DNA from: Aquiluna sp.
GTDB taxonomy: Bacteria > Actinomycetota > Actinomycetes > Actinomycetales > Microbacteriaceae
Assembly (NCBI GenBank): GCA_028144365.1
Contig: JAOGAX010000001.1
Coordinates: 45,872-109,871, forward strand
Direction of reading: 5' to 3'
Length of the DNA: 64,000 nt
This document shows, one piece after another, positions 2,176 to 6,038 of this stretch (position 1 is its first letter; each line of letters opens with the position of its first letter). The notes beneath the pieces were generated by a model. The model worked only from the letters and a program-made list of their open reading frames with translations, made no database searches and had not been told where the DNA came from. Both the position numbers and the translations under genes were made by a program.

Positions 2176-2574
2176 ATGGACTTTCAAACAGCGCTCAGGT
2201 CCTTCTGGAAGCGTTATCGAGACTTTAGGGGCCGCTCTAGGCGATCAGAGTATTGGTTCATCCAGCTGTTCTTGGTTGTCACTAACTTTTCCGTCGCAAT
2301 TATTGACCTGGCACTTATGGGTTGGGATGTCGACCGCTTCATAGCTAACGGTGGTGGCGGGATCGTTGGACTTGTCTGGATTCTTGTGACAATCGTGCCA
2401 GCACTTGCTGTGTTGGTTAGAAGGCTGCACGACACCGGAAAGAGCGGCTGGTGGGCTCTGGTTGGCTTACTGCCACTGGTTGGCGCTATCGTGCTGCTCG
2501 TATTTACTGTGACTGACTCGTCGCCAGGGGAGAATAAGTTCGGCCTTTCCCCTAAGGAAAGCTCGGACGCTTAG
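2176..2574 (+). CDS. DUF805 family membrane protein
   Basis: This 132-residue protein begins with the pattern of DUF805 proteins (FWKRYRDFRGRSRRSEYW near residues 10-27). Three to four membrane segments follow, along with the family's RLHDTGKSGWW motif near residues 83-93. These are inner-membrane proteins of unknown biochemical role, often linked to envelope stress. A clear GAGGAGG-like ribosome site (2163-2168) precedes the ATG. The TAG at 2572-2574 overlaps the TAA of the convergent P450 gene by 2 bp. Confidence 0.9.
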   Translation: MDFQTALRSFWKRYRDFRGRSRRSEYWFIQLFLVVTNFSVAIIDLALMGWDVDRFIANGGGGIVGLVWILVTIVPALAVLVRRLHDTGKSGWWALVGLLPLVGAIVLLVFTVTDSSPGENKFGLSPKESSDA

Positions 2575-3758
2575 CCTACGGCTACCGGCACGCTCTCATA
2601 ACCGCGGAGAACGAAGGTAGGTCTGCGGCTAGGTTCGGCTGAAAGTCGAAGGCCAGGGAACGTTTCGAGAAGCATAGGCAGCGAAGTTGTCATCTCCATG
2701 CGCGCTAGAGGTGCACCAATGCAAAAGTGAATGCCTGCTCCGAAGCCAATGTGGGGGTTTGGGGAGCGGCTTAGATTTAGTTCGTCAGCGTGCTCAAAAA
2801 CGGTTTCGTCTCGATTTGCACTTCCCAAGAGAGCCGCTATCTTCGCACCTTCAGGAACTATCACTCCGCCCACCTCGGTGTCCTCAGTGGCCGTTCGCTC
2901 AAAAAGATGAAGCGGAGCGTCAAACCTTAGGAACTCATCAACCGCAGTTTCGGCCATGGCCCTGGGATTAGCTACTAAGTCTTGCCACTGACTAGGGGCC
3001 TTCATGGCTGCCACCATGCCATTGCCAAACCCATTTACACTCGCCTCGTGACCTGCATTTAGCAGCAGCACGCAGGTGGCGATTAGCTCTCGTGCAGAGA
3101 GCTTCTCGCCTTCCTCTTCTACAAGTGCAAGCTCAGATATCAGATCGCTACCCGGGCTCTTCTTTCTATCTACCATCAGGCCATGCACATAAGCGGCAAA
3201 CTCATCGCTGGCTCGTCTGGCCTCTGCCCTCTCCTGGTCGCTTGGGGATGGCTCATACATCTTTACAATCGCCTGTGACCAGGGCCTTAGCAGGTGCTCA
3301 TCGCTCTCGGGAAAGCCCAGCAGTTCTGCTATCACCATCACAGGTAGGGGTTCTGCGAAGTCCGCGATTAGATCAAACTGACCTGTGTCACCAAGGTTTT
3401 CTTGAATGCGATCGAGGAGTCGTTTTGTGATGCGCTCGACATCTGGTCTTAGCTCCTCAATCCGCTTTGGGTTGAATGCCTTCATAACCAGTGAGCGAAG
3501 TCTGGCGTGTTTTGGAGGCTCTGAATCGAGGATTGAGTCTGCGTGAAGATAGTTGAAGGTCTCCCAGTCACTCTCTGGTTCCTTGGGACTAAAGATGCGC
3601 CCGAGCGTTCTGGTTCGCAGTACCTTGCTGGCGTCCTTGTATTTTGAGGCTAGAAATAGCTGGCTTTCTTCGTGCCAGACAGGACCCTCTTGCTTGCGCA
3701 GCTCCGCTAGCTGTGGGTAGGGATTCGCTACAAATTCGGGGTCGGTGAAACTAAACAT
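2571..3758 (-). CDS. Cytochrome P450
   Basis: This 395-residue soluble bacterial P450 would be a haem monooxygenase needing ferredoxin-type redox partners, which are not encoded here. The haem-binding loop FGAGIHFCIGAPLA carries Cys346. The K-helix ExxR is E275-R278 (EFLR). The I-helix oxygen-activation motif is AGHEAS (235-240), with Ser in place of the more common Thr. The start overlaps the end of the upstream nitroreductase by 8 bp, so the two are probably translated together. Substrate unknown. The pair lies downstream of the rhodopsin gene on the same strand. Confidence 0.93.
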   Translation of the reverse strand: MFSFTDPEFVANPYPQLAELRKQEGPVWHEESQLFLASKYKDASKVLRTRTLGRIFSPKEPESDWETFNYLHADSILDSEPPKHARLRSLVMKAFNPKRIEELRPDVERITKRLLDRIQENLGDTGQFDLIADFAEPLPVMVIAELLGFPESDEHLLRPWSQAIVKMYEPSPSDQERAEARRASDEFAAYVHGLMVDRKKSPGSDLISELALVEEEGEKLSARELIATCVLLLNAGHEASVNGFGNGMVAAMKAPSQWQDLVANPRAMAETAVDEFLRFDAPLHLFERTATEDTEVGGVIVPEGAKIAALLGSANRDETVFEHADELNLSRSPNPHIGFGAGIHFCIGAPLARMEMTTSLPMLLETFPGLRLSAEPSRRPTFVLRGYESVPVAVG

Positions 3759-4482
3759 CTTTGAGCTTGATGTCCTGAATTGGCAGCCGCTCTGCCTCGA
3801 AAGAGTTCACCTTGTGATCTGACGGGTAGCCAACTGCTATACCGCAGAGGAGTTTGTAGCCCTTTGGAATCTGGAACTGCTTTCTGATTGGGTCCGCCCA
3901 AAGGGCAACCGCTCCCTGCGCACAGGTTCCGAGTCCCCTGGCATGGGCACCAAGCATTAGGTTTTGCATAAACAGCCCGGCATCAGAGACCGAGTACTCA
4001 CCGAGGCCTTTGTGGGTGAAGATGAAAAGTTCAACCGGAGCACCAAAGAACTCATAGTTTCTTGCCCATTGAGCTTGCCTAGCGACGTGGTCATCACGCT
4101 TTATGCCAAGTAACCCGTAGAGCTCTGAGCCAACTCGCTGTTGTCTTGGGACAAGTTCTTTCGGGTAGGGACGGAAGACGCGGTAGTCGCTTTTGGGGAG
4201 TCCGAAGCGAGTGAAGAAGAGTTTGATTTTGCCCCAGGTGCCACCTCTCAGGGCCTTAGCTGCTGCCTCCCACCTGGCCAGAAGGTCTCTGCTTATCTGG
4301 TCACGCTTTTCACCGGTGGCAATCCCTACGAGATAGGGGCGGGTGTTGGACCAGGATGGTGCGGTCATTGCATCCCGGAGGAGCTCGTCGATGAGCTCTT
4401 GTGGGACAGGGGTCTCTAGGAAGTCTCTGGTAGTCCTGCGAGATGCGACGAACTTGGCCCAGTCGTCTCTAGATACAGCCAC
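3751..4482 (-). CDS. Nitroreductase family protein
   Basis: This 243-residue protein is of the FMN-dependent nitroreductase type. It opens with a SRRTTRDF motif near residues 14-21 and has the later family pattern GLGTCAQGA near residues 180-190, where dimer and FMN contacts lie. Such enzymes reduce nitro compounds, quinones or other electron-poor substrates with NAD(P)H. The start is a GTG with no obvious ribosome site, 9 bp after the stop of the 37-residue ORF upstream. It overlaps the P450 gene by 8 bp. The partnership with a P450 suggests a shared biotransformation, but the substrate is unknown. Confidence 0.88.
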   Translation of the reverse strand: MAVSRDDWAKFVASRRTTRDFLETPVPQELIDELLRDAMTAPSWSNTRPYLVGIATGEKRDQISRDLLARWEAAAKALRGGTWGKIKLFFTRFGLPKSDYRVFRPYPKELVPRQQRVGSELYGLLGIKRDDHVARQAQWARNYEFFGAPVELFIFTHKGLGEYSVSDAGLFMQNLMLGAHARGLGTCAQGAVALWADPIRKQFQIPKGYKLLCGIAVGYPSDHKVNSFEAERLPIQDIKLKDV

Positions 4483-4491
4483 AGAGGAAGA

Positions 4492-4605
4492 CTAGCGATA
4501 GTTTGCTAGGAAACTGGGGAATGCGGCTCCGATGATAAGCATCACTGGAACGGTGAGCGTTAGAGCAAGAATCTGAATCAGATCCCAATCAATCTTTTTT
4601 CTCAA
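4492..4605 (-). CDS. 37-residue single-pass membrane peptide downstream of actinorhodopsin
   Basis: This ORF runs from a TTG at 4605-4603 to a TAG ending at 4492. The ribosome site is AAAGGAG, about 6 bases upstream. The product has a basic start (MRKKIDWD) and one hydrophobic helix of about 20 residues containing many L, V, I and A, then SFLANYR at the end. It lies between the rhodopsin terminator hairpin and the nitroreductase gene. I do not recognise a family. It may be a small subunit or partner of the rhodopsin, or a leader peptide. A real gene is supported by the ribosome site and the sensible topology. Confidence 0.6.
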   Translation of the reverse strand: MRKKIDWDLIQILALTLTVPVMLIIGAAFPSFLANYR

Positions 4606-4628
4606 TTTGTCTCCTTTGGTAAAGAAAA

Positions 4629-4652
4629 GGGGCGCAGGTTTCCCCGCGCCCC
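4629..4652 (-). terminator. Intrinsic terminator after actinorhodopsin
   Basis: On the minus strand this forms a 10-bp stem (GGGGCGCGGG paired with CCTGCGCCCC, one G-U pair) with a GAAA loop, followed by TTTTCTTT. It starts 13 bases past the rhodopsin stop codon. It should end most rhodopsin transcripts; the 37-residue ORF begins right after the T-rich tract and would rely on read-through or a promoter of its own. Confidence 0.85.
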
Positions 4653-4665
4653 TATCCCTTGTGAA

Positions 4666-5424
4666 TTAGTCGCGGAACTCAGCCTTAGCGAATTCCTTGT
4701 CTTCCTCACCACTCTTGATACGAGCGATGGTGAAGATCATCAGACCGAAGAGACACTTCGCCAAAATGTCGGCGATGGTGTAACCGGTCTCACGAAGCAC
4801 GAAGCTGGTCTCGTCGAAACCAGTTGCGTTCATGTTTGCGATGAAGGCGATTGGGTAAACACCCCAGGTTGCGAGAAGAAGAAGACGTAGCTCCTTGATC
4901 TTGCGCTGTACAGCCTCGCTCTGACGCTCGAGGCTCTTACCGAGCTCAACGAACAGTACGTAGAGGATGTATAGGAATGGGATGGTCGATAGTAGACCCC
5001 AGACCGAAGGCGCTAGGCCCATGGTCATGCCAGAGTCTCCTGGGTAACCCAGTGCGATCATCAGGGCTGCTGCTGGTACTAGGCGGACGAGCAGTGAGCT
5101 CTGTGCCTGGCGAGCTAGCGCGAGAACTGCAACGGTCTCAACCAGTAGCAGTGGAACAGTTAGGAACCAGTCAACGTAACGGTAGCCAACGTTGTAGGAG
5201 GCTCCTGCTACTGCGTCTGGACCGAATGCGTGGACAAAGCTGTCGAACATTCTGAAGTAGTGGTAAGCGGCGATCGCCGTAACCGTTGCCGAGACCATGA
5301 CAGCCATGCGGTAACGGGGGAGAACACGCTCACGTCCTACGAGAAGAAAGGTGGTAGTGAACAGCATGCTCGCAATTCCAAGCGAAAGCATGTTGAAGAC
5401 TACGTTATAACCTTCTGTACTCAT
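4666..5424 (-). CDS. actR: Actinorhodopsin, light-driven proton pump
   Basis: This 252-residue, seven-helix microbial rhodopsin uses light to move protons out of the cell. Helix C carries the proton-pump triad D85-T89-E96 with proteorhodopsin spacing. The retinal-binding lysine is K223 (ADILAKCLFG). The conserved helix-B histidine is H55. Leu93 is at the spectral tuning site and predicts green absorption. Gly143 (VWGLLSTIPF) lies where xanthorhodopsin-type pumps have the small residue that opens a carotenoid-antenna pocket, so antenna binding is possible (inference). The ribosome site AAAGGA precedes the ATG. No retinal or carotenoid synthesis genes are in the window. Confidence 0.95.
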   Translation of the reverse strand: MSTEGYNVVFNMLSLGIASMLFTTTFLLVGRERVLPRYRMAVMVSATVTAIAAYHYFRMFDSFVHAFGPDAVAGASYNVGYRYVDWFLTVPLLLVETVAVLALARQAQSSLLVRLVPAAALMIALGYPGDSGMTMGLAPSVWGLLSTIPFLYILYVLFVELGKSLERQSEAVQRKIKELRLLLLATWGVYPIAFIANMNATGFDETSFVLRETGYTIADILAKCLFGLMIFTIARIKSGEEDKEFAKAEFRD

Positions 5425-5567: not shown

Positions 5568-6038
5568 CTAATAACCAAGAACTAATTTTCCTGCGGCCAG
5601 CTCCTCCATGGAGCCCGTGAAGAAAAACCCAATGTATTGGGGGCCCTTGGGAGTGAGCGTCAAAAGTCCCCGCATGGATTCAACCCTTGAGCCGGCTTCG
5701 CTCCTGAGCTCGAACCAAAACTCCCTCGTCCCCAGTGCCAAACCATGATTTATTACCCGGAGCCGGGCGTTGACTCCAAACTCGTTTTCTTCAAGAACTA
5801 GCTCGTCGGTTACTTCGAGACCGCCTGCGATTCCCAAGTTCCCGCAGCTAGCAATTCCGCAGTAGGTAACGCTTTGAGGATCGAGTTGCTTGAGGGTTGC
5901 CCGCTGAGCGTCTAGCTCCAGCTGGCTACTCAGAGGAACCAGCGCCAACAGGGCAACAATTACACCAAGCCACATCGTGATCTGCTGACCCCTTGGGGTA
6001 GTTAGCCATGGTCTTTTCAAAGGAACCTCTTCGAACAA
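5568..6038 (-). CDS. Hypothetical single-pass membrane protein
   Basis: This 156-residue protein has a charged N-terminus of about 20 residues, one membrane helix near residues 21-38 (MWLGVIVALLALVPL) and an exported-looking domain of about 115 residues. That domain has beta-rich character and two cysteines (CGIASC, near 60-65) that could form a disulfide. No family is recognised. It is divergent from psuG and ends 143 bp upstream of the rhodopsin start on the same strand. Confidence 0.65.
   Translation of the reverse strand: MFEEVPLKRPWLTTPRGQQITMWLGVIVALLALVPLSSQLELDAQRATLKQLDPQSVTYCGIASCGNLGIAGGLEVTDELVLEENEFGVNARLRVINHGLALGTREFWFELRSEAGSRVESMRGLLTLTPKGPQYIGFFFTGSMEELAAGKLVLGY

Follow-up and report, generated by a model that had tools for sequence, protein, structure and literature searches.

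A putatively overlooked small membrane protein encoded behind actinorhodopsin in Aquiluna

Some transporters and oxidases have small accessory subunits with a single helix, such as KdpF, CydX and AcrZ. Microbial rhodopsin pumps, by contrast, are treated as one-protein machines that suffice by themselves, and they are studied by expression without other native proteins. To our knowledge, no small accessory subunit has been described for a pumping rhodopsin, and our literature searches likewise revealed no small protein that partners a microbial rhodopsin. Here we analyze a short open reading frame (smORF) that lies behind the actinorhodopsin gene, actR, in Aquiluna. Like KdpF, CydX and AcrZ, its predicted product has fewer than 50 residues and one membrane helix and is tied to a large membrane protein. 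Unlike those subunits, smORF has a microbial rhodopsin as its neighbor and is a putative physical partner of it; similarity to the three proteins is undetectable.

Searches of Pfam, NCBIfam and the PDB gave no significant sequence relative of smORF, and a scan of IMG/VR viral contigs confirmed none. Two weak matches were rejected. YkgR (NCBIfam NF041474) resembles smORF in size and in having a single helix, yet its best match (E 0.021; 4 of 13 members) fell below the family cut-off. The match to DUF7333 (Pfam PF24020), a family of unknown function, did not reach the gathering score (best E 0.018; 2 of 13 members).

The locus lies on the minus strand of the window, by which we mean the whole 64,000-nt stretch of Aquiluna DNA analyzed. 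Its features are as follows.

4666–5424, minus strand: actinorhodopsin gene actR (Bac_rhodopsin, PF01036), the constant upstream neighbor of smORF
4618–4653, minus strand: hairpin with an interrupted U-tract, separating actR from smORF (a possibly leaky rhodopsin terminator)
4611–4617, minus strand: ribosome-binding site AAAGGAG (7 bases), 5 nt 5' of the smORF TTG
4492–4605, minus strand: smORF, encoding a predicted 37-aa single-pass membrane protein (TTG start at 4605–4603, TAG stop)
3751–4482, minus strand: nitroreductase-family gene, with a GTG start 9 nt past the smORF stop; a neighbor in part of the genus only
2571–3758, minus strand: cytochrome P450 gene; a neighbor in part of the genus only

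A first-pass annotation had proposed an overlooked 37-residue frame here, with a good ribosome site, a TTG start, a basic N-terminus and one membrane helix, positioned just past the rhodopsin terminator. All of these features are borne out. The frame translates as MRKKIDWDLIQILALTLTVPVMLIIGAAFPSFLANYR, and TTG is its sole possible start codon. Ribosome sites equivalent to AAAGGAG are found at most related copies. The product has a basic N-terminus and a single hydrophobic segment (Kyte–Doolittle maximum 2.43), and AlphaFold2, run on 12 natural sequences, predicted one helix at residues 7–34 (mean pLDDT 87). Short length and a single membrane helix are what would be expected of an accessory subunit. 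A strong, GC-rich hairpin (4653–4628, minus strand) with a U-rich tail precedes the frame, which begins 60 nt past the stop codon of actR.

To follow the frame in other genomes, we took actR relatives from public genomes as well as from whole genomes covering the genus and the family, and searched for smORF homologues with a profile of the peptide. Of the 19 Aquiluna species genomes with readable actR and downstream sequence, 17 had a clear homologue directly 3' of actR; one further Aquiluna actR, at a contig end, is outside the 19 counted. Homologues are 35–38 residues long and 49–78% identical to the window's protein, except in the sister species L001, where the protein is identical. Eleven residues are invariant (K4, I5, D6, W7, Q11, L15, P20, G26, A27, P30 and Y36). 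The reading frame is free of stops in 16 of 16 copies, and each of the remaining five frames has stops in 11–16 of them. Codon-position entropy in these copies was 0.68, 0.31 and 1.30 bits for the first, second and third positions. Mean pN was 0.21 and mean pS 0.72, with pN/pS ∼0.1 in close pairs. Between the window and L001, 7 of 114 nt differ in smORF, all seven at third positions and synonymous; in the intergenic stretch the count is 12 of 60 nt. Because openness is frame-specific, variation falls at third positions and pN/pS is low, we conclude that smORF is under purifying selection and is almost certainly a translated gene. The first-pass annotation had called for more synonymous than non-synonymous change, as is seen here, and for conservation of the frame beside actR in close relatives. 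The latter holds within Aquiluna and fails in Rhodoluna, where actR has no smORF neighbor. We regard smORF as a new and putatively overlooked family of small proteins that is fixed behind actR in a single genus.

We also mapped the window's neighboring genes in relatives. The order actR–smORF–nitroreductase–P450 occurs in about eleven species. In L003, L004, L006 and L088, actR–smORF sits in another location and the next genes are convergent. In L098 and L099, the upstream flank matches that of the window, and a convergent P-type-ATPase-like gene (named from sequence) follows smORF. None of these six has the nitroreductase or P450 gene behind smORF, and in six species smORF is the last same-strand gene. 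The reverse arrangement is seen in L005 and L018, the two Aquiluna species with actR but no adjacent smORF, where both nitroreductase and P450 genes are present. In L018, ∼2.5 kb of other DNA separates actR from the nitroreductase gene, at the place where smORF is missing. smORF is likewise missing from each of the three Aquiluna genomes in which no actR was detected, these genomes being just 50–70% complete.

An accessory subunit would be expected to stay beside its pump gene across species and rearrangements. smORF does so in 17 of 19 genomes and in at least three downstream neighborhoods: nitroreductase–P450, convergent DUF3817-like/aminotransferase, and convergent P-type-ATPase-like. The pair is kept although upstream neighbors also vary. 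Since smORF stays with actR when the surrounding genes change, it probably acts as a small helper to the pump. On the ActR tree, smORF-bearing genomes fall within one clade of 26 rows and do not form a single branch. Their distribution takes four changes, and a single origin is still compatible with the tree. No ActR alignment columns were found that separate smORF-bearing from smORF-less relatives.

The spacing between the two genes bears on expression. Where the gap is 60–105 nt, as at most smORF-bearing loci, a hairpin with a U-tract lies between actR and smORF. In L003, L004, L006 and L088, smORF starts 15–20 nt past actR, and a strong terminator hairpin comes after it. In the window, fewer than 25 nt separate the U-tract from the smORF ribosome site; no promoter of sigma-70 type was detected. 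The position of the hairpin would imply read-through. The simplest reading of these signals is that smORF would be reached by read-through of the actR hairpin, yielding less smORF product than rhodopsin.

Taken as a whole, smORF probably serves the rhodopsin system in some way. Its most likely role, which we put forward tentatively, would be that of a small accessory subunit or an assembly or stability factor of actinorhodopsin. A physical accessory of ActR is likewise possible, a claim we make a shade more cautiously. The product would be an inner-membrane protein of 35–38 residues, with a short basic N-terminus in the cytoplasm and K-I-D-W at the interface. Its one helix would carry the invariant proline in the middle, and the C-terminus would probably lie outside. 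Its source would be the actR message, which would include smORF outright where the gap is 15–20 nt; elsewhere read-through would supply the protein, at a level below that of rhodopsin. We propose that it packs against the lipid-exposed surface of the rhodopsin pentamer and modulates ActR assembly, stability, carotenoid antenna or pumping rate. A narrower and more doubtful version is a dedicated, sub-stoichiometric single-helix subunit, supplied by terminator read-through, that in Aquiluna might adjust how the pentamer packs or how the carotenoid antenna binds. Conservation along one face of the helix is weak (overall p ∼0.08; uncorrected p 0.01 in the C-terminal half). Against an accessory role, actinorhodopsins outside Aquiluna do not have smORF as a neighbor, and possible distant relatives lie away from actR.

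Published work on heterologous expression limits what such a partner could do. ActR of Aquiluna strain IMCC13023, whose genome (L015) carries smORF, pumps in E. coli on its own (PMC8113403). Rhodoluna lacicola ActR made alone in E. coli likewise forms stable pentamers and pumps (PMC11790970), and the closest PDB match to ActR, 9hfk, is a five-chain entry. Given that ActR pumps in E. coli without smORF, pumping cannot depend on smORF, which excludes a subunit that is strictly required; a modulatory partner is possible. Native IMCC13023 cells acidify more than E. coli with ActR alone, which the authors credit to carotenoid (PMC8113403). Should Aquiluna indeed keep a small protein dedicated to ActR, the native rhodopsin complexes would have escaped notice so far, and a protein might account for part of this difference between native and heterologous pumping. 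Cultured Aquiluna include IMCC13023 and KACHI24. Rhodoluna relatives are reported to be genetically editable (PMC11577799), so the partner claim is open to experiment.

Relatives beyond Aquiluna bear on a second reading, in which smORF acts in a wider light/pigment or membrane-stress response. It would then not touch rhodopsin and would be co-expressed with actR since light calls for both; its targets could be a carotenoid enzyme, a membrane protease or the respiratory chain. No smORF was found beside actR in Rhodoluna, Aurantimicrobium or other actR loci. Across 400 Microbacteriaceae and 395 class genomes, just one further short-ORF match passed, in the Rhodoluna genome G328. Here the peptide MKKLLRDFDWAALQALIAVVALPVMIIFGSFTIVIFNP lies at a locus other than actR, and the G328 actR (locus L012) belongs to the same rhodopsin clade. 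Two other matches were rejected: one from the 395-genome class search lies inside a 293-aa frame, and one in G466 is part of a long frame. In G021, which has no actR-linked smORF copy, MNTFGIAVLVGLVPVMIIIGALFMTPLLPYYAG is encoded at L163:5170 (plus strand) with a GGAGG ribosome site, after a DoxX-like gene and far from actR (C7). This looks like a displaced smORF copy. Four Rhodoluna genomes (G032, G454, G439 and G467) also have a small single-helix gene divergent from crtB.

L161:5258–5365: crtB-divergent small ORF
L162, near 4881: crtB-divergent small ORF
L166, near 1492–1605: crtB-divergent small ORF
L167, near 1486–1599: crtB-divergent small ORF

These ORFs, of two sequence types, are flanked by the carotenoid cluster on one side and by ilvD or a CorA-like gene on the other. 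Their peptides share with smORF a K-rich start, (W)D, ∼12 residues and P-x5-G at the same spacing, and like it they come from a pigment-related locus; they differ in their weak overall similarity, in the locus being another one and in their restriction to four genomes. They are possibly distant relatives. Against composition shuffles, the G328 and G021 peptides scored z 9–11 with the smORF family and the crtB-linked peptides z 3.2–6.6 (moderate support for the G467/G439 pair, weak for G032/G454), values that are optimistic because the peptides had been picked by search. The resemblance and the distant G328 and G021 loci speak for a light/pigment role. Yet homology of the crtB-linked genes is insecure, with genome E values of 0.014–0.02 for the smORF profile and a separate profile needed for G032 and G454. 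Moreover, most Rhodoluna and all examined Aquiluna crtB loci lack such a peptide, and in all 17 clear Aquiluna cases smORF is tied to actR. The tie to pigment genes is only suggestive, and we regard this reading as unlikely. Separately, crtB of G004 (L227, L229) is split, with three in-frame TGA codons (a frameshift, sequencing error or pseudogene).

Small size and hydrophobicity are also typical of toxin-like peptides, and a general membrane-stress peptide of this kind could hitch-hike behind actR, where the transcript is strong. Yet smORF is single-copy and has been kept vertically in one genus despite neighborhood changes. Its polar and aromatic motif is invariant, and it shows neither a link to mobile elements or phages nor a confirmed relative on viral contigs, making this origin improbable.

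The first-pass annotation had also raised a link to the downstream oxidoreductases. The same-strand nitroreductase start 9 nt past the smORF stop, and the shared order in about eleven species, would suit a membrane partner or a translational leader for nitroreductase/P450. The gene-order comparison largely rules this link out. Because smORF and nitroreductase/P450 occur independently (six species with smORF alone, two the reverse) while actR is the constant partner, we consider it very unlikely. A nitroreductase-operon leader peptide in particular was rejected, as smORF does not always precede nitroreductase.

One might also read the region as non-coding, whether simply untranslated or acting as a cis RNA element at the actR 3' end. 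This idea draws on the adjoining strong hairpin and is hardly credible given the third-position variation, the wholly synonymous differences from L001, the conserved ribosome sites and the single open frame.

On the other side of actR, directly upstream, the window encodes a 156-residue protein (5568–6038, minus strand) that has a single hydrophobic segment at its N-terminus and matches no Pfam family. Most Aquiluna keep a protein at this position, and its sequence is ∼32–45% identical beyond the closest relative.
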